From Aequorivita capsosiphonis DSM 23843 (GTDB taxonomy: Bacteria > Bacteroidota > Bacteroidia > Flavobacteriales > Flavobacteriaceae), in NCBI RefSeq assembly GCF_000429125.1, contig NZ_AUBG01000012.1:124001-188000 (forward strand): 64,000 bases of DNA, read 5' to 3'. A program made the translations under genes and the position numbers. The notes under the pieces are model-generated. The model ran no database searches and was not told the origin of the DNA. It saw nothing but the letters and a program-made list of their open reading frames with translations. Below are positions 2 through 9,199 of the stretch, one piece after another (the stretch's first letter is position 1; each line of letters begins with the position of its first letter).

Positions 2-1609
2 ATTTCAAATGAGACCTTACAAAACATTGTAAAACAACGGGAACATACATTTTGGTATAATCCGCATTTTGTGGCATTCTACGAAAGTGTATCTTTTGCT
101 TCACAACTGCAATATCAGATTCAAAAACTTAAAGTAGCATTTACCTCTCTTGAAAACGGTTTAGAGCAATACACGACGTCGCTTTATGAGATTGATTATC
201 TATATAGAAAATTTATTTTAAACTATAGAAGATCCAATCAAGACAAGATATTAGGTGGATTGGCTCAAAAAGTAGAAAAAATGTACACCAATGATTGGTT
301 ACTTCATTATACTGATAAATGGCAATCTGTAATTGACAATCTATACACTTGGCCTGTAAAGGAACCCTTTAGTCAAAGACAGTTTTTTAAGAAACATATT
401 AAACCGTTTGTAGATAAAAATCAACGTGTCTTTGTCATTATATCCGATGCATTGCGCTATGAGTGCGGCGTGGAATTAAATAAACGATTAGCGCAAGAAA
501 ACAGATACGACAGCGAACTTGAAGGATCTATAGCCTCACTACCTTCTTATACACAGTTAGGTATGGCTTCCTTACTTCCTCACACAGAATTGTCAATAAA
601 AAAAGGCTCTGATTTAATTCTCGTGGATGAAATGAGTTCAATGGGCATTCCTGCGCGATCAAAAATTTTAACTAAAAATTCCGGGGCTCGTGCCACTGCA
701 ATATTAGCAGAGGATTTTATGAAATTTAGCGCAAGTACCACAGGTAGAGACTTTGTAAAACAATATGATGTTATATACATCTATCATAATGATATAGATG
801 ATACTGGTGATGACACTACAACACAGGACAAAGTGTTTGAAGCCGTTGAAAGAGAGTTTGATTATCTGATTGATCTATTAAAGAAGATCTCTAATATGAA
901 TGGTAATAATATGATTATTACTTCAGATCACGGTTTCTTATATCAATATCAAACTCTAGAGGAAAGCGATTTTACTGAAGCTGAAATAAAAGGCGAAATA
1001 GACAAATTGAATAGAAGATTCGTTCTTGGAACTGACATAAATGGTAATGAAGCAGTAAAGTCCTTTTCCCACAACCAACTTGGTTTAACCAGCAACGGAA
1101 ATGCACTCGTTCCAAAATCTATTAATAGATTACGCGTAAGTGGATCTGGTTCTAAATTTGTTCACGGAGGCGCCTCTTTACAAGAAATTGTATTACCAGT
1201 ATTAAAAATCAATAAAAAGCGCCAGGATACCACAGCTCAGGTAGAAATAGATATTATTAAATCTACCGATAAGATTACTACTAACCTACTCGCTGTTTCC
1301 TTCATTCAAACGGAGCAAGTAGATGACACTATCTTGGAACGGAAAATTAAAGCATCCATTCAAGCAGAAGATGGCACGTTGTTAAGTGATCAGTTTATCT
1401 ACACCTTCGATATTACAGAGGAAAACCAACGACAGCGAGAAGTTAAAAACAGATTCCAATTAACTGCTCAAGCCAGTGGTAAATATAAAAATCAACGTGT
1501 AAAACTGGTACTGGAAGAACCAATGGATCGCGCTAACAAATGGAGAGTCTACAAAGAGTATTACTATACCCTTAATATCTCTTTCACTAACGATTTTGAT
1601 GAATTTTAA
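2..1609 (+). CDS. pglZ: BREX phosphatase-domain protein PglZ, C-terminal part (cut by window start)
   Basis: The reading frame is open from the first bases of the window, so the gene starts to the left and only its last 535 or so residues are seen. The alkaline-phosphatase-superfamily PglZ core is visible: a metal-binding segment VFVIISDALRYECG near base 430, the segment IYIYHNDIDDTGDD near 775, and the late metal-binding motif IITSDHGF near 915. PglZ is the core component shared by BREX phage-defence systems. The downstream neighbour is brxL, which fits the usual pglZ-brxL end of a type 1 BREX operon; pglX, brxC, brxB and brxA would then lie left of the window. The GTG at 71 is internal, because homologous-looking sequence (QREHTFWYNPHF) continues upstream of it. 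Confidence 0.9.
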   Translation: MSNETLQNIVKQREHTFWYNPHFVAFYESVSFASQLQYQIQKLKVAFTSLENGLEQYTTSLYEIDYLYRKFILNYRRSNQDKILGGLAQKVEKMYTNDWLLHYTDKWQSVIDNLYTWPVKEPFSQRQFFKKHIKPFVDKNQRVFVIISDALRYECGVELNKRLAQENRYDSELEGSIASLPSYTQLGMASLLPHTELSIKKGSDLILVDEMSSMGIPARSKILTKNSGARATAILAEDFMKFSASTTGRDFVKQYDVIYIYHNDIDDTGDDTTTQDKVFEAVEREFDYLIDLLKKISNMNGNNMIITSDHGFLYQYQTLEESDFTEAEIKGEIDKLNRRFVLGTDINGNEAVKSFSHNQLGLTSNGNALVPKSINRLRVSGSGSKFVHGGASLQEIVLPVLKINKKRQDTTAQVEIDIIKSTDKITTNLLAVSFIQTEQVDDTILERKIKASIQAEDGTLLSDQFIYTFDITEENQRQREVKNRFQLTAQASGKYKNQRVKLVLEEPMDRANKWRVYKEYYYTLNISFTNDFDEF

Positions 1610-1776: not shown

Positions 1777-3780
1777 ATGAACGCACTCAATGTAAAAATA
1801 AACGAGCACTTTGCAGGTAAGGTAGTTCGTAAGGATTTAACCAAATTAGTAAAAGGTAACGCCATAGTTCCTACCTATGTTCTCGAATACTTATTGGGAC
1901 AATACTGCGCTACAGATGACGAAGCGACTATTGAGCACGGCGTAGAAACGGTCAAGAATATAATCGCAAAACATTTTGTGCATAGAGATGAGTCTCAAAT
2001 AATCAAATCGACTATAAGAGAAAAAGGATCTCATCGAATTATAGATAAAGTGGCTGTTCAACTAAATGACAGACAGGATAGATATGAAGCATCATTTGCG
2101 AATTTGGGGTTAAATCGTGTTCCAATTTCTGATGCACTTATCAAAGAACATCAAAAATTACTCTCTAGCGGGGTTTGGTGTATTTTAACTTTGGGGTATT
2201 TTCCTTCAGAAGAAAGAGATCACACGCCTTGGATGGTTGAGAGTTTAAAACCTATTCAAGTTTCCAATGTTGATATTGAAGAATATAAAGGCGCTCGCAA
2301 ACATTTTGACAAGGAAGAATGGATGGATGTTTTATTGCAATCAATTGGACTTAATCCAGAAGAATTTACATTTCGTTCAAAACTGCTGCAACTAACCAGA
2401 CTTGTTCCATTTGTAGAGAACAACTATAACTTAATTGAACTAGGTCCAAAAGGAACAGGAAAGTCGCATATTTATTCTGAAATGTCGCCACACGGTATTT
2501 TAATTTCTGGTGGAGAAGTATCAAAAGCGAAACTATTTGTAAATAATAGTTCAGGTGATATAGGGTTAGTTGGGTATTGGGACGTTGTTGCCTATGATGA
2601 ATTTGCAGGAAAAACAAAACGAGTAGATCGTGGCTTAGTGGATATAATGAAGAATTATATGGCTAATAAATCCTTTTCAAGAGGAACTCAAGTATATGGT
2701 GCTTCTGCTTCAATGGTATTTGTTGGAAACACAGACCATTCAGTAAAATATATGATGAAACATAGCGATCTTTTTGAGGCCTTGCCTAAAGACTATTATG
2801 ATACGGCTTTCCTTGACCGTATGCACGGATATCTTCCAGGGTGGGAAGTTCAGAAATTACGAAATGAGATGTTTACTTCGCAATACGGTTTTATCGTAGA
2901 TTACCTTGCTGAAGTATTAAAGAACCTAAGGAAAGAAGATAGAACGCACGATTATACAAAATACTTTGAATTATCGAGTACCATTACTACCCGAGATAAA
3001 ACGTCAATTGCCAAAACATTCGCTGGTTTAATTAAAATAATATACCCAGATAATGATTTCACTGAGGCTGATGCGAAAGAAATTTTAGATTTCGCTATTG
3101 AAAATAGAAAACGGGTTAAGGATCAACTTCGCAAAATGGACGAAACTTTTGAAGAAGTGGATTTTAGTTACGTTAGTAAAACAACAGGAGAACATTTTCC
3201 AATCCTGACACTAGAAGAGATTGAAAATGAAGTAAAACCTACTATACAGCAAACGGAAGTTGCTGAGAACAGTCAATCGCAGAAATCCGAAAACGTTAAT
3301 TTATTACTAGAACCTGGGCAAAAAATAATTAGAGATAATCAGTCTGGTATTTCATACGATAATTTGTTTGGAGCTTATTTATTAAATGCCACTGATTTTA
3401 ATATCACAGACCCATACATTAGGCTACCCTATCAATTGCGGAACTTTATGGAACTAGCAAAACTGATTGGCGAAAAGAAAGATCCAGACACAGAAGTTAA
3501 ACTTCACTTAGTAACTAGTAATAATGAAGAGTTTATTGAAAATGCCAAAGATGCCTTTGAACAGATGCGTTATTCATTGGAATCAATGGGTATTTTATTT
3601 TCCTATGAGTTTGACGATTTTATTCACGACAGATCTATTGAAATGAATAACGGATGGAAAGTGATTTTAGGGAGAGGACTAGATATTTGGCAAAAAACGG
3701 GTGGTTGGTATGACATCAATGAATACATCCAAGAACGACGAGTTTGTAAGGCTTGTGAAGTGACTTTTGTAAGAATCTAA
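1777..3780 (+). CDS. brxL: BREX protein BrxL: AAA+ ATPase with MITD1-like C-terminal domain
   Basis: This 667-residue protein has the BrxL AAA+ core. Walker A is GPKGTGKSH at about residues 223-231, followed by the family-typical GGEVSKAKLFVNN and VVAYDEFAG (Walker B region). BrxL is a DNA-binding ring ATPase needed for BREX defence against phage. The last 138 residues (from about 530) do not look like a Lon protease domain. They carry ITDPYIRLPYQLRNF, IHDRSIEMNNGW and GRGLD, which match by eye the C-terminal phospholipase-D-like domain of eukaryotic MITD1 (MIT_C). The gene lies 167 bases after pglZ on the same strand, probably in the same operon. The family is certain; the role of the C-terminal domain is inference. 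Confidence 0.9.
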   Translation: MNALNVKINEHFAGKVVRKDLTKLVKGNAIVPTYVLEYLLGQYCATDDEATIEHGVETVKNIIAKHFVHRDESQIIKSTIREKGSHRIIDKVAVQLNDRQDRYEASFANLGLNRVPISDALIKEHQKLLSSGVWCILTLGYFPSEERDHTPWMVESLKPIQVSNVDIEEYKGARKHFDKEEWMDVLLQSIGLNPEEFTFRSKLLQLTRLVPFVENNYNLIELGPKGTGKSHIYSEMSPHGILISGGEVSKAKLFVNNSSGDIGLVGYWDVVAYDEFAGKTKRVDRGLVDIMKNYMANKSFSRGTQVYGASASMVFVGNTDHSVKYMMKHSDLFEALPKDYYDTAFLDRMHGYLPGWEVQKLRNEMFTSQYGFIVDYLAEVLKNLRKEDRTHDYTKYFELSSTITTRDKTSIAKTFAGLIKIIYPDNDFTEADAKEILDFAIENRKRVKDQLRKMDETFEEVDFSYVSKTTGEHFPILTLEEIENEVKPTIQQTEVAENSQSQKSENVNLLLEPGQKIIRDNQSGISYDNLFGAYLLNATDFNITDPYIRLPYQLRNFMELAKLIGEKKDPDTEVKLHLVTSNNEEFIENAKDAFEQMRYSLESMGILFSYEFDDFIHDRSIEMNNGWKVILGRGLDIWQKTGGWYDINEYIQERRVCKACEVTFVRI

Positions 3781-3886: not shown

Positions 3887-5704
3887 ATGTATTTAAAGAA
3901 TTTAAAACTTTGGAACTTTAGAAAATATGGAAACACCAATCCATTTGATCTTAACCAACCGCAGTTAGATTTAAATTTCACTAAGGGTGTAAATGTGCTC
4001 GTAGGAAAGAATGACTCTGGCAAGTCTGCTATAATCGATGCTATAAAAATTGTTTTAAAAACGCATAGCTATGATTGGTATAAAATTGATCAAGATGATT
4101 TTTTCTTTGACTCTGAACGACTTAGGATAGAAATAGTCTTTGACGATCTGCATCCTGAAGAGGCAAAGCATTTCACCGAATGGTTGGGCTGGATCAAGGA
4201 CAGTGAGGGTAAAGCTAAATGTTATTTGAGACTGATACTAGACGTTCGAAGAAATTTAGCTAATAAAAGAATTTTTCCATCAGATGTAAAGGCAGGAATA
4301 GACCCAGTAGGTTTTCAATTGAATGCGGAGGCTAGAGAATATCTAAAAACTACATACTTAAGACCTCTTCGCGATGCGAAATCAGAACTTGTTCCTAGGA
4401 AGAACTCAAGACTCACACAAATCCTTCAAGCCCACGATGCTTTTAAAGATAAAGATCTAGATCATTTGCTCGTTGGACTTTTTAAAGATTTCAATGATTC
4501 TGTGGAACAATATTTTTTGGGTAAAAATAATGAAGGAAAGGATTTATCTAAAGATGAACTAAAAGGAAAAGAACTTAAGTCGGACATTGATAGATATATC
4601 AAATCCTTTTATGATGATTCAAAAGAATCTGCATTTGGAGTTAAGGGAAATAACCTAAAAACAATCCTTGAAAAATTAGAACTGTCCATAAAGGGTGAGA
4701 TCAATCCAGGACTTGGAACGCTTAACCGTCTTTTTATGGCTACGGAGTTACTTCATTTACAAAAAAAGGATTGGTCAGGATTGAGATTGGGATTAATTGA
4801 AGAACTTGAAGCTCATTTGCATCCGCAAGCACAAATGCAGATTATTGAGGCGTTACAAAAACAAAAAAAAATTCAGCTTATTCTTACTACCCATAGTCCT
4901 AATTTGGGATCAAAGATCAAATTAGAAAATTTAATACTATGCTCAGATAATTCGGCCTTTCCATTAGGCCCAGAGTACACAAAATTAGAATCGGATGAAT
5001 ATTCATTTTTGGAAAGATTTTTAGATACTACCAAGGCAAATCTATTTTTTGCAAATGGTGTTATAATGGTTGAAGGTTGGTCTGAAGAGATTTTAATTCC
5101 AGCAATAGCCCAACGACTTTTTGAACAAGGAACAATTTCAAAAAATTTAACGGAAGCAGGTGTTTCCATCGTTAATGTTGGCAATACGGCATTTCAACAA
5201 TATTCCAGAATATACCTACGATCAGATGCTTCCAAACAAATCAACATTCCCGTCTCAGTTGTAACTGATGTTGATGTGAGAGCTTACAAATTACATATAG
5301 ACAAAGATGAAGACGGAGCTATCGTTAAAACCTACATTAAAGAAGATGAAGTTGAAGTTCAGGATAAATCAGAAAAGAAGAAATCTGTAATTATAACGAA
5401 ATATAACGATCAGAATGTTAAAACATTCGTCGCGGAAAATTGGACTTTAGAATATGCTCTATTAAAATCCACATCGCTTTCGAAACTCTTTTTAGATGCA
5501 TTCAAGAAAGTGCATCACCAAGTTGATCTTGATAAAAAAGAAGAAGAACTTGGAAAGAAGTTAATTAACAAAGGTTTACATAAAACTCAAATTGCCTACG
5601 AGATTGCTGCCAATATTGAATTGAATACCATCCTTCCAATTATTGAAGATGATGCGAGCATAAAGTATATCATAGATGCAATAAAACACGCTTGTAATGA
5701 TTAG
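3887..5704 (+). CDS. gajA: GajA-like OLD-family ATPase/TOPRIM endonuclease
   Basis: This 605-residue protein has an N-terminal ABC-type ATPase: Walker A GKNDSGKS at about residues 39-46, and the late Walker B/switch region IEELEAHLHPQ with a TTHSP motif near 303-335. A C-terminal TOPRIM domain follows, with VEGWSEE near 394 and the acidic VVTDVDV near 457. That order (split ATPase, then TOPRIM) defines OLD nucleases such as GajA of the Gabija defence system, where the ATPase controls DNA nicking. The next gene is a UvrD-like helicase overlapping by 8 bases, which is the Gabija arrangement. Length is close to known GajA. A different OLD-helicase defence system is the main alternative. Confidence 0.8.
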   Translation: MYLKNLKLWNFRKYGNTNPFDLNQPQLDLNFTKGVNVLVGKNDSGKSAIIDAIKIVLKTHSYDWYKIDQDDFFFDSERLRIEIVFDDLHPEEAKHFTEWLGWIKDSEGKAKCYLRLILDVRRNLANKRIFPSDVKAGIDPVGFQLNAEAREYLKTTYLRPLRDAKSELVPRKNSRLTQILQAHDAFKDKDLDHLLVGLFKDFNDSVEQYFLGKNNEGKDLSKDELKGKELKSDIDRYIKSFYDDSKESAFGVKGNNLKTILEKLELSIKGEINPGLGTLNRLFMATELLHLQKKDWSGLRLGLIEELEAHLHPQAQMQIIEALQKQKKIQLILTTHSPNLGSKIKLENLILCSDNSAFPLGPEYTKLESDEYSFLERFLDTTKANLFFANGVIMVEGWSEEILIPAIAQRLFEQGTISKNLTEAGVSIVNVGNTAFQQYSRIYLRSDASKQINIPVSVVTDVDVRAYKLHIDKDEDGAIVKTYIKEDEVEVQDKSEKKKSVIITKYNDQNVKTFVAENWTLEYALLKSTSLSKLFLDAFKKVHHQVDLDKKEEELGKKLINKGLHKTQIAYEIAANIELNTILPIIEDDASIKYIIDAIKHACND

Positions 5705-7688
5705 CATTACTGAATCAGATATCGCTTATGCAGAAGAAATACTTTTAGAGTCAGGGAAAGTATTTGATGACGAGCGAAGAGCCTTTATAAAAAATTTCAA
5801 TACTATAGATTTGCAAGCAGTTCCTGGTAGCGGAAAAACTACTGCACTCCTTGCTAAATTATTGATTCTTGAAAAAAAACTACCACTATTTGGTAATAGA
5901 GGTATTTTAGTCATATCCCATACAAACGCTGCTGTAAATGAGATAAGAGAAAGAATTGGACATCACTGCCCCAAATTGTTTTCTCATCCCAACTTTGTAG
6001 GCACCATTCAAAGCTTTGTTGATACTTTTTTGGCTATTCCAGCATATCTTCTAAAATACAAACAAAAACCTGTACGTATCGATAATGAGATTTATAATGA
6101 GACGATTTCGAAATTCTTCAACTATGGTAAAACTGGATTTTCAAAACAAGAAAAAAGTAACGCAATCTATTACAATAAGAATTTCAACGTTCTTCACAGT
6201 TATCGTTTTCAGTATTCAAAGAATGGCATATTATTGATAGACAAAATCAGTGGAAAAGAGCTAATCGTCAAAACACCAAATGCAAAGAAAGTAAAGTTTA
6301 CACCATCGGAAATTTTAAGAATTGAGCAGTGGTTGAGAACAACTAAGGAAGATACGTTGAGAGCGGGAACATTATGTTTTGATGATGCGTATTTTCTAGC
6401 CGATTTACTATTAGCGGAAATTTTAAATTACGATAAATTGCTTCAAAAAAGATTTCAATATGTATTTGTAGATGAGATGCAGGATATGGAAGTTCATCAA
6501 ATGAACTTAATTGAAAGATTGTTTACTGGTCATAATTGTGATACCAAGTTACAACGACTGGGTGATATTAATCAGAGTATTTTCACAAGTAATGTTAACG
6601 CAAAGTTGATATGGAATCAGAGACAAAAAAAATTACTTTTTAAGGGAAGCCATAGATTGAGCAAACCCATAGCCGAGATTGTTAAAAGTGCTTCTTTGAC
6701 ACAAACTGAGGTCGATGGTCGTGGTACCGATGAAAATGGAAAAGCAATTGACTTAAAGCCCCTACTATTGGTTTTCAATGTAGCTGATGCTGATAAAGTA
6801 ATACCAACGTTTTCAGGTAAAATCAAAGAGCTTCAAAAAGATGGATTACTTCCCCTAGCCAAGCAAAATTATCACGCTTTTGGATGGCGAAAGGAAACTG
6901 ACCAAGACCATAAGCTCTGTTTAAATTCATATTTACCCGCTTTGAAAAACAAAACAGGCACTAACTCATTAGAATTTACAACATTAGAAGATTATCTACT
7001 ATTCTTTCCAAAAGAAGACCACTCTTTGAAGACATCTAGGAGTGCCATTTTAAATGGATTGGTTAAAATGCTTCGTATTGAAAACGTTAGAGATGAACAC
7101 AGTAGATATTTCAGTCCTAATCGTCTGCTGTATTATATCAAGAAACTTAATCTTCATAATTACGAGCTACTGAAAAGTAAAATTTTAAAATGGAGTATAG
7201 AGCTCATAGAGTTTAAATCAAATGATGTTCTACTAGATATGAGGATTTTTGCTCCTGTTTTATTTGGCTGGTTGAGTTCAGAGATAAAGTATTCTCAAAA
7301 ATTTATCGATACACCTTCAGTTGATAAACCTGCATCTAAAGAGGAAGAAGTTAAAAATTATTACGATAAGGATGGTTTCAAAGTTCAAGTTGGAACAGTA
7401 CATAATATTAAAGGACAAACTCACACCGCCAGTCTTTATCTAGAAACCTTTTGGAATGGAAAGTATGAATCTGAGCGCTTAAAAGATCAATTCTTCAATA
7501 TTTCCATAAATGAATCGCTTCAAGGTCTGACGGATTCAGCAAAAGAAAAGTTACGACAAACTGCTAAAATGGTATATGTTGGATTTTCGAGGCCTACGCA
7601 TCTATTAGCTTTCGCAGTTGAAAAAGATAGATTTGAAAAAAACTTAAAAGACATCGATAGGAATAAATGGCTGATTATTGAAATTTAA
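5697..7688 (+). CDS. gajB: GajB-like UvrD/Rep-family helicase
   Basis: This is a 663-residue superfamily 1A helicase. Walker A is VPGSGKTTALL near residue 41, Walker B FVDEMQD near 257, a GDINQSIF motif near 283, and a late motif TVHNIKGQTH near 567 (usually HxxKGLE in UvrD). The start codon lies inside the end of gajA (8-base overlap), which implies translational coupling and a joint function. In Gabija, GajB senses or unwinds DNA and activates the GajA nuclease. The protein is longer than typical GajB (about 500 residues); the extra length is mainly in the middle and C-terminal half. The helicase family is certain, and the Gabija assignment rests on the partner gene. Confidence 0.8.
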   Translation: MISITESDIAYAEEILLESGKVFDDERRAFIKNFNTIDLQAVPGSGKTTALLAKLLILEKKLPLFGNRGILVISHTNAAVNEIRERIGHHCPKLFSHPNFVGTIQSFVDTFLAIPAYLLKYKQKPVRIDNEIYNETISKFFNYGKTGFSKQEKSNAIYYNKNFNVLHSYRFQYSKNGILLIDKISGKELIVKTPNAKKVKFTPSEILRIEQWLRTTKEDTLRAGTLCFDDAYFLADLLLAEILNYDKLLQKRFQYVFVDEMQDMEVHQMNLIERLFTGHNCDTKLQRLGDINQSIFTSNVNAKLIWNQRQKKLLFKGSHRLSKPIAEIVKSASLTQTEVDGRGTDENGKAIDLKPLLLVFNVADADKVIPTFSGKIKELQKDGLLPLAKQNYHAFGWRKETDQDHKLCLNSYLPALKNKTGTNSLEFTTLEDYLLFFPKEDHSLKTSRSAILNGLVKMLRIENVRDEHSRYFSPNRLLYYIKKLNLHNYELLKSKILKWSIELIEFKSNDVLLDMRIFAPVLFGWLSSEIKYSQKFIDTPSVDKPASKEEEVKNYYDKDGFKVQVGTVHNIKGQTHTASLYLETFWNGKYESERLKDQFFNISINESLQGLTDSAKEKLRQTAKMVYVGFSRPTHLLAFAVEKDRFEKNLKDIDRNKWLIIEI

Positions 7689-7738
7689 AAACAAAACGAC
7701 GAGTACGCAGATAGTTAGTATTATATAAATAGTGTGGT

Positions 7739-9199
7739 GTGACATATATAGAGAAATACATAAAGAGCAAAGGTGGTATTCTGTCCGGAGACCTAGCACG
7801 GTATATACAGAAAAAACAAGGCATAACCAATGAAGCAGCACGTAAACGTGTTCAAAGACTTAGTAGTCCGATTCATAAAATAGCAGGGCTTTTTTCTGAT
7901 AAAAAAGTTTTTGTCTATCACTCTGACAACTTTCAAAACTTGGACTATTTTACAGATTTGGTGGAGTCTTTCAAGACTGATGGTAAGCGGTGCTATTCAA
8001 TTATTAATGCCATTAAATACCACCAGGGTCTAGTTCCAATTGATGAATTAGCTAATTACTCAATCAGTCCTGTAAATTCAATAAAGGGCCATATGAAGTT
8101 CTCTTCGGTTATAGAACTTCTCAAAAAGCATAATTTGATTCGTGAGACAAACACTGGAGAATTTGGACTACACATTTCTGTATCGGAAAAATTAAGCCCA
8201 AATGTTAGACATATAAAGGGAGTACAAATTTCTAAACGTTTAGTAATCCAACAATTTGAAATCTGGAGTAAAAATATTGGCCTCGTCTCTTTTAAAAAAG
8301 GTAAGAATAATAATATAGTCGGTGGATTTCAATTTGCCTTTACTGCGCCTACATATATAGATGGTCTTGTGGGTTATAACAATAAAATAAAAAAGCCGGG
8401 GTTTCTTGTTACCGATATTCTAATTGGAAATATAACTGATGAAAATACAGTAAGTTTTTTTTTAAGGAAAATTGCGGCTATAAAAGCATCAAATCCTTCC
8501 TTAAAATTATTCCCTGTATTAATAGTCGATGGTATTTCATCTGAAGGTCTCAATCAGCTAAAGAGTAAAGGTGTTCTTGTGGCATCCATAAAAGAACTTT
8601 TTGGCAAAGATTATAGTGAATTGCTTAAAAGCCTAATTAATACTGTAACCAATGCTGGTGCAATCTTAAAAACCGAACCAGAAAAATATTTGCAGATGAT
8701 GGAAAAACTCACAAAGTTGATTGACGGAAAAACAAACAACTTAAGGGGTGATTTATTTGAGTTAGCTGTAGGTTTCTATTTTAGTAAATATTCACAATCA
8801 CTGGACATTGGGAAAAGAGTACCTGTAACAGATTCTAATCGAACAAGAGAAATAGATGTTCTTGCCCGAAATGAAAACGAAATATGCATAGTGGAATGTA
8901 AAGGCTACAACTATCCTGTTGACATAGAATATATTGAAATTTATTTATCAGAAAAAATTAAAGAAATTAGAGGATGGCTAGCTATTACTCATTCAGACAA
9001 GAGACATCGATTTGAGATATGGAGCACTGGCGGATATACAAAGGAAGCTTTGGTCTTACTTAAGCAGACAAAAGATAAAGTTAGAAAATTTGATTTTGAT
9101 TATCTAGACCAAAATGATATTAAGGAAAGGGCCAATAAGTTGAACTCTGAAAAATTCAAAGAAATCTTGAGAGATTATTATTTGAAAGAAATAACTTAA
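7739..9199 (+). CDS. Winged-helix protein with C-terminal PD-(D/E)XK nuclease-like domain
   Basis: This 486-residue protein starts with GTG at 7739. The frame has a stop at 7730-7732, no ATG precedes this codon, and the first residues (GILSGDLARYIQKKQGI) already form a helix-turn-helix-like segment. The first 130 residues look like tandem winged helices. The C-terminal part has a restriction-endonuclease-like motif: E in GDLFELAVGFYF, D in REIDVLAR near residue 371, and ExK in IVECKGY near 386. It follows gajB by 50 bases on the same strand, so it may be a third gene of that defence unit or a separate nuclease. I do not recognise the family by name. The nuclease fold is a motif-based inference. 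Confidence 0.65.
   Translation: MTYIEKYIKSKGGILSGDLARYIQKKQGITNEAARKRVQRLSSPIHKIAGLFSDKKVFVYHSDNFQNLDYFTDLVESFKTDGKRCYSIINAIKYHQGLVPIDELANYSISPVNSIKGHMKFSSVIELLKKHNLIRETNTGEFGLHISVSEKLSPNVRHIKGVQISKRLVIQQFEIWSKNIGLVSFKKGKNNNIVGGFQFAFTAPTYIDGLVGYNNKIKKPGFLVTDILIGNITDENTVSFFLRKIAAIKASNPSLKLFPVLIVDGISSEGLNQLKSKGVLVASIKELFGKDYSELLKSLINTVTNAGAILKTEPEKYLQMMEKLTKLIDGKTNNLRGDLFELAVGFYFSKYSQSLDIGKRVPVTDSNRTREIDVLARNENEICIVECKGYNYPVDIEYIEIYLSEKIKEIRGWLAITHSDKRHRFEIWSTGGYTKEALVLLKQTKDKVRKFDFDYLDQNDIKERANKLNSEKFKEILRDYYLKEIT

Follow-up and report, generated by a model that had tools for sequence, protein, structure and literature searches.

What is the C-terminal part of the BrxL protein encoded in this stretch of Aequorivita capsosiphonis DSM 23843, and what might it do in bacteriophage exclusion (BREX)? 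The stretch analysed, referred to as the window, is 64,000 nucleotides of contig NZ_AUBG01000012.1, and brxL lies close to its start; coordinates are positions in the window unless prefixed by a locus label (L followed by a number). A sequence-only reading of this DNA had seen in the tail of BrxL a likeness to the C-terminal domain of eukaryotic MITD1, and had proposed a membrane- or lipid-binding module as a new idea for where BrxL acts. Our analysis suggests that the tail is a single-motif domain of the phospholipase D (PLD) superfamily, standing where the BrxL of Acinetobacter has an inactive Lon-like domain, and that it most likely (probability about 0.58) serves a complete type 1 BREX system as its nuclease arm.

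Homology and predicted fold of the BrxL tail

The protein is identified as BrxL by its N-terminal and ATPase domains (PF20442 and PF13337), by TIGR02688, which has a cut-off of 329.3 bits, and by the PADLOC model PDLC02508 (996.7 bits). This PADLOC model of 2023 already spans a tail of the MIT_C type. The solved structures of Acinetobacter BrxL (8emc and 8emh) share the N-terminal and ATPase domains and align to residues 5–475 (E = 1.9e-152), where the similarity ends. TIGR02653, which describes Lon-tailed BrxL, aligns only to residues 4–487 and scores 617.9, short of its cut-off of 628.25; Lon-like tails characterise one type of BrxL and are not general to the family. In the excerpts of PMC10164562 the C-terminal domain of the Acinetobacter protein is Lon/RadA-like, and it mediates tail-to-tail pairing of rings without a protease site. 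Neither the Pfam scan nor the sequence-based structure search found a Lon match to the C-terminus of the window protein.

The tail matches PF16565 (MIT_C) with 141.7 bits, against a curated cut-off of 25, over model positions 1–141 of 142. It matches MITD1 both by sequence and by fold, which confirms the likeness seen earlier, and chance resemblance is rejected by the E-values together with the fold match. The two proteins differ in the remainder of their architecture. Human MITD1 (4a5z, 2ymb) carries a MIT domain at its N-terminus and binds the endosomal sorting complex required for transport III (ESCRT-III), according to excerpts of PMC9477494, whereas BrxL has an AAA+ ATPase, and a Pfam scan of the whole protein (E up to 1) found no MIT domain.

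The tail is predicted to adopt the fold of the PLD superfamily, with MITD1 as its closest solved structure. A Lon-like fold was rejected, the Pfam, sequence and fold matches all pointing elsewhere; a Lon chain is also absent from the Z-ranked list of structures, which proves nothing alone. Among chains other than MITD1 the restriction endonuclease SauUSI ranks first (Z 9.4), tied with phosphatidylserine synthase (9.1), followed by polyphosphate kinase and NucT (both 8.4) and, between 8.3 and 7.6, by PLD4, NgoAVII (8.3), PLD3, Nuc (8.1), Zucchini, TDP1 and BfiI (7.6). Foldseek places TrmBL2, phosphatidylserine synthase, phospholipase D1 and Zucchini, in this order, after MITD1. Z values less than 1 apart count as ties, which leaves nucleases and lipid enzymes on a par, and the predicted fold identifies the superfamily, not the substrate. 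SauUSI carries a helicase. It differs from BrxL in that the matching part (7clg, chain residues 24–157, 13% identity) is near its N-terminus and is not the tail of an AAA+ ring.

A swap of the BrxL tail is already in print, so "new idea" was too strong for the tail itself. Rakesh & Krishnan 2026 (PMC12839542), who credit Li et al. 2025 for BrxL-HKD, describe an HKD-endoDNase with an HRD motif that replaces the Lon-like domain in 1030 of 2913 BrxL-bearing type 1 BREX taxa. In those variants, as here, a PLD-superfamily domain with a lysine to arginine change takes the place of the Lon-like tail, although their motif is HRD and that of the window copy is HRN, as in 32 of the 109 BrxL rows of our alignment. 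MITD1, PF16565, MIT_C, ESCRT, DruE and dynamin are all absent from the main text of that paper; the 1030 taxa probably carry PF16565 tails. PF16565 is mentioned among BREX-associated families in the excerpts of PMC12715929 (BMC Genomics). To this our analysis adds the connection with MITD1, the near-invariant residues held in common and a bacterial dynamin family.

Conserved residues and the HKD-like motif

The domain was located with an iterative hidden Markov model that absorbed ABC transporter open reading frames in its later rounds, and a clean profile was used for all later work on residues. The alignment contains 243 sequences: 109 BrxL tails, 120 tails from a dynamin search, seven from an IF2_N search, six of other architectures and MITD1. 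Most of the BrxL rows stem from the best 80 of 527 loci of one search, in which one of six search patterns lies within the motif region. Frames of ABC ATPases (L029, L030, L128–L131, L135 and L136), a GidB (L028) and a short sequence with a stop (L132) were excluded before counting, L025 (a 195-base match with an internal stop) is outside the counted rows, and four loci fetched twice (L023, L026, L027 and L134) were counted once. Near-copies are still present among the rows, including the window's own tail (L001) and the pair L142 and P0241. The count was therefore repeated after thinning at 60% identity, which left 42 rows and excluded MITD1 as well as the copies from the window itself. Gaps were set aside in the counts over all 243 rows.

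Most of the best-kept columns are polar, and conservation at these columns is near-universal. D636 and R619 are found in 242/242 rows, T580, Q553 and D545 in 242/243 each, R655 in 239/240, H617 in 240/242 and R633 in 239/242. In the thinned set these eight columns hold in 40–42 of the 42 rows (H617 in 41, R619 and D636 in all 42). The exceptions at H617 are L140, one of three divergent non-BrxL rows, with serine, and the BrxL row L016, with glutamine. H617 and R619 belong to a motif, HxR(x)4[D/N], that resembles the HxK(x)4D motif of PLD enzymes; in the window copy the histidine is kept, lysine has become arginine and aspartate has become asparagine, in the same register. Position 624 is aspartate in 75 of the 109 BrxL rows and asparagine in 32, as it is in the window copy and in MITD1.

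Profile comparison gives the same register. In profile-profile alignments with 16 PLDc_2 domains H617, R619 and N624 fall on the histidine, lysine and aspartate of HKD, with modest scores. A narrower profile (63 rows) matches PLDc_2 with E = 0.002 and a probability of 14%, and a wider one with a score of 32.5, E = 6e-5 and a probability of 65%, where 40 column-permuted controls reached at most 23.3. Single tails were tried as well: two of the 63 gave a PLDc_2 match, the better one at E = 0.004, and unrelated families match equally well or better (Slx4, E = 4.6e-4), so these single-tail matches are not evidence.

The tail could have lost catalysis and serve a structural purpose, holding rings together in pairs or contacting another BREX protein, like the inactive Lon-like tail in Acinetobacter. 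The exchange took place at the same position in the protein (Lon-like tails are confirmed in L144 and L168), the replaced domain pairs rings tail-to-tail without a protease site in the excerpts of PMC10164562, and the BrxL domain is acidic with HRN rather than HKD in the window copy. A scaffold, however, should hardly need H617, R619, D545, Q553, T580, R633, D636 and R655 at 98.8–100% in BrxL, dynamin, IF2_N and MITD1 proteins alike, and we regard this explanation as unlikely.

Table 1. Features of the pglZ–brxL region, with window coordinates and BrxL residue numbers.
Feature	Position	Strand	BrxL residues	Evidence or remark
pglZ, C-terminal part	2..1609	+		PF08665, E 1.8e-54; TIGR02687 (BREX-1 PglZ type A), profile 314–842 of 844
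brxL	1777..3780	+	667 in all	TIGR02688, 614 bits, above cut-off
BrxL_N domain	1804..2199	+	10–141	PF20442, E 8.9e-50
BrxL ATPase domain	2230..3168	+	152–464	PF13337, E 2.3e-133
MIT_C / PLD-like C-terminal domain	3346..3771	+	524–665	PF16565, E 1.9e-41
DPYIR	3409..3423	+	545–549	D545 in 242/243 rows
HDRSIEMN	3625..3648	+	617–624	HKD-like HxR(x)4N (H617, R619, N624)
GRGLD	3670..3684	+	632–636	at the GSxN position of PLDc_2 by a low-probability (2.3%) global profile alignment

Partners of MIT_C and the likely substrate

The MIT_C domain is found with several partners besides BrxL. It ends a 2023-residue helicase of the DruE type (Druantia; L137:3663–9734), which one model matches to position 2017 of 2055. 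In two loci (L139:7868–10706 and L140:1919–4188) an ATPase gene of the NsnB type (Menshen) is followed by a separate MIT_C gene of about 305 codons. The domain match is weak in both, with 32.1 bits in L139 (above the cut-off of 25) and 23.6 bits in L140 (just below it), and the L140 copy, with serine for the motif histidine, may be dead. In L138:410–9310 a 1065-residue protein has MIT_C with many Sel1 repeats after it, and the locus also encodes a 1299-residue Eco57I-type methyltransferase. IF2_N is fused to MIT_C in a small family with a member on the Paenarthrobacter plasmid pYJN5-1 (L142:7416–8465), and both domains are present in three of the seven matches of that search.

A dynamin-type GTPase ending in MIT_C is encoded on plasmid pTs485 of Candidatus Thiodictyon syntrophicum (L143:5613–8456). 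Dynamin-type GTPases act on membranes. The family is large, with 172 proteins found in a search (E up to 0.001), mostly of about 900–1000 residues; among the best 120 (P0121–P0240) 116 have a dynamin domain, and all 120 keep D545, Q553, N556, T580, H617, R619, R633, D636 and R655. The family is a third setting, beside BrxL and MITD1, for the same residues. That active-site-like residues are kept both in nucleic-acid machines and in membrane GTPases favours a phosphodiesterase whose substrate is set by its partner, and DNA would be the natural substrate where that partner is BrxL.

The bacterial dynamins keep a membrane or lipid role possible for some members of MIT_C. As the leading idea for BrxL, however, the membrane module of the sequence-only reading did not hold up, although the homology to MITD1 and the PLD-like fold did. 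Such a module would bind membrane lipids, as MITD1 is reported to do, and would thereby bring BrxL to the membrane; the idea draws on MITD1 being the closest solved structure, on the title of a MITD1 paper cited in the excerpts of PMC9477494, which reports membrane binding, and on the domain being shared with the dynamin-type GTPases. The dynamin-type tails have a median net charge of +2 (n = 120), unlike those of BrxL, which are net negative (–8 in the window copy, median –7 in 109 BrxLs). The conserved residues of BrxL look catalytic, with polar, HKD-like columns rather than a basic surface, the protein lacks a MIT domain, and in other prokaryotic proteins MIT_C ends a DruE-type helicase or adjoins NsnB-type ATPases. 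The restriction endonucleases SauUSI, NgoAVII and BfiI are among the next structural matches, with lipid enzymes scoring alike. A membrane role for the BrxL tail is possible, less likely than a nuclease, and on balance we hold it improbable.

Least likely of the alternatives is a phosphodiesterase that acts on a phospholipid or small nucleotide rather than on DNA, and would cause membrane damage or signalling during infection. PLD-superfamily enzymes cut lipid or nucleic acid, both kinds are among the structural matches, and the dynamin-MIT_C members and MITD1 keep the same residues. Against this, BrxL rings bind DNA in the excerpts of PMC10164562, a DNA methyltransferase is central to the BREX operon in this genome, and the NsnB-type and DruE-type partners suggest nucleic acid.

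We favour a nuclease because of the mostly polar, near-invariant columns and the HKD register over the MIT_C rows; because the top-ranked structure by Z other than MITD1 is the ATP-dependent restriction endonuclease SauUSI, with NucT, NgoAVII, Nuc and BfiI also listed; because a DruE-type helicase and NsnB-type ATPases are among the prokaryotic partners of MIT_C; and because the BREX operon is complete and independent authors have assigned BrxL-HKD as a DNase (PMC12839542). Three points weigh against a nuclease. The acidic charge is awkward for simple DNA binding, and no less awkward for an interaction with anionic lipids; the motif of the window copy is altered at two of its three positions (HRN for HKD); and to our knowledge enzymatic activity is known for no MIT_C domain.

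In the PLD superfamily two domains pair to form the active site. We infer that BrxL would form an ATP-dependent ring on DNA, as published for Lon-tailed BrxL, and that two rings or two subunits would bring their C-terminal domains together. The paired HxR(x)4N half-sites, triggered by BREX, may then cleave or nick DNA flagged by BREX as foreign. H617 and R619 offer a direct handle on whether HKD-type BrxLs cut phage DNA, and so on how BREX restricts.

MITD1 is identical to the common residue at all fourteen best-kept columns. Its closest sampled bacterial tails are those of the BrxLs in L002–L004, with 44–45% identity over 132 positions, and the brxL of L002 belongs to a complete BREX operon. 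Descent of MITD1 from a subclass of BrxL is no more than a suggestion, as judged from one MITD1 sequence and a tree in which no well-supported branch holds it. A broader proposal, which we consider speculative and rather doubtful, is that MIT_C is one catalytic phosphodiesterase family of immunity (BrxL, DruE-type helicases, NsnB-type partners) and membrane machines (dynamins, MITD1), and that human MITD1, with the near-invariant set kept and its nearest sampled bacterial relatives in BREX BrxL tails, may be a captured bacterial immune domain that is still enzymatic. MITD1 has been treated as a lipid-binding ESCRT cofactor, and its agreement at fourteen columns gives reason to look again at its standing as a lipid-binding fold without activity. 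A search of open-licence papers, mostly by listing, found no link between the BrxL tail and MITD1, nor did the search of open-licence papers for MITD1 with dynamin, which was the one that covered the dynamin family.

Distribution of the tail and the BREX locus

PF16565 was found in 30 of 395 Bacteroidota genomes at E up to 0.001, above the cut-off in 27, and 43 of the same genomes have a BrxL_ATPase match. Near-full-length BrxL ATPase (at least 300 of 313 model positions; tables compared by eye) occurs at 46 places in these genomes. At 25 of them it is accompanied by MIT_C, at 12, including L144 and L168, by a frame of 644–712 residues without MIT_C, and at nine the frames have 477–577 residues, two of them extending past the fetched stretch. 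Matches above the cut-off were also found in 7/398 genomes of the phylum of the Pseudomonas locus, 1/194 of that of the Woesearchaeota locus and 4/199 of that of the Phycisphaerae locus, although L135, among these last matches, is a frame of an ABC transporter. Eight ABC transporter ATPase frames (model positions about 59–127; one above the cut-off) and one GidB (L028) are false matches of PF16565 by a Pfam check, which calls for caution in annotation.

No MIT_C match was found in 50,697 phage records (E up to 0.1), and 25 plasmid records have one (E up to 0.01) against 324 with a BrxL match (E up to 1e-5); a mobile or phage-borne domain was rejected on these counts. A tree of the ATPase domain (63 rows, 52 with MIT_C and 11 with other long tails, some rows very long) has at least two changes of tail, of which well-supported branches force one; several independent swaps may have taken place. 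In a plasmid of Hymenobacter sp. BRD67 (L141) the annotation splits brxL into several pieces and labels the final one "MIT C-terminal domain-containing protein", and the gene therefore looks broken.

The BREX operon begins upstream of the window on the same contig (G000:C9), where PADLOC identifies brxA and brxB and NCBIfam models identify BrxC and BREX-1 PglX. The start of pglZ, the last BREX gene before brxL, is also outside the window, its entire frame of 832 codons being L111:17111–19606. With brxA, brxB, brxC, pglX, pglZ and brxL all present in a single orientation, the type 1 BREX system is complete.

Additional genes stand between the core genes of the operon (L111:5778–17093). A 534-residue frame after brxC matches an Argonaute model (42 bits), an AlkB-like protein matches the final part of the CARF_2OG model, and the operon also encodes a protein matching RTasDUF1848 and a HelD/UvrD-like protein. 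Two frames of 560 and 481 residues ahead of pglZ have no matches in NCBIfam or PADLOC. Directly downstream of brxL is a Gabija pair, gajA (3887–5704) and gajB (5697–7688), followed within the span 3887–9199 by a 486-residue frame with a weak match, below the cut-off, to a NERD nuclease-like domain.
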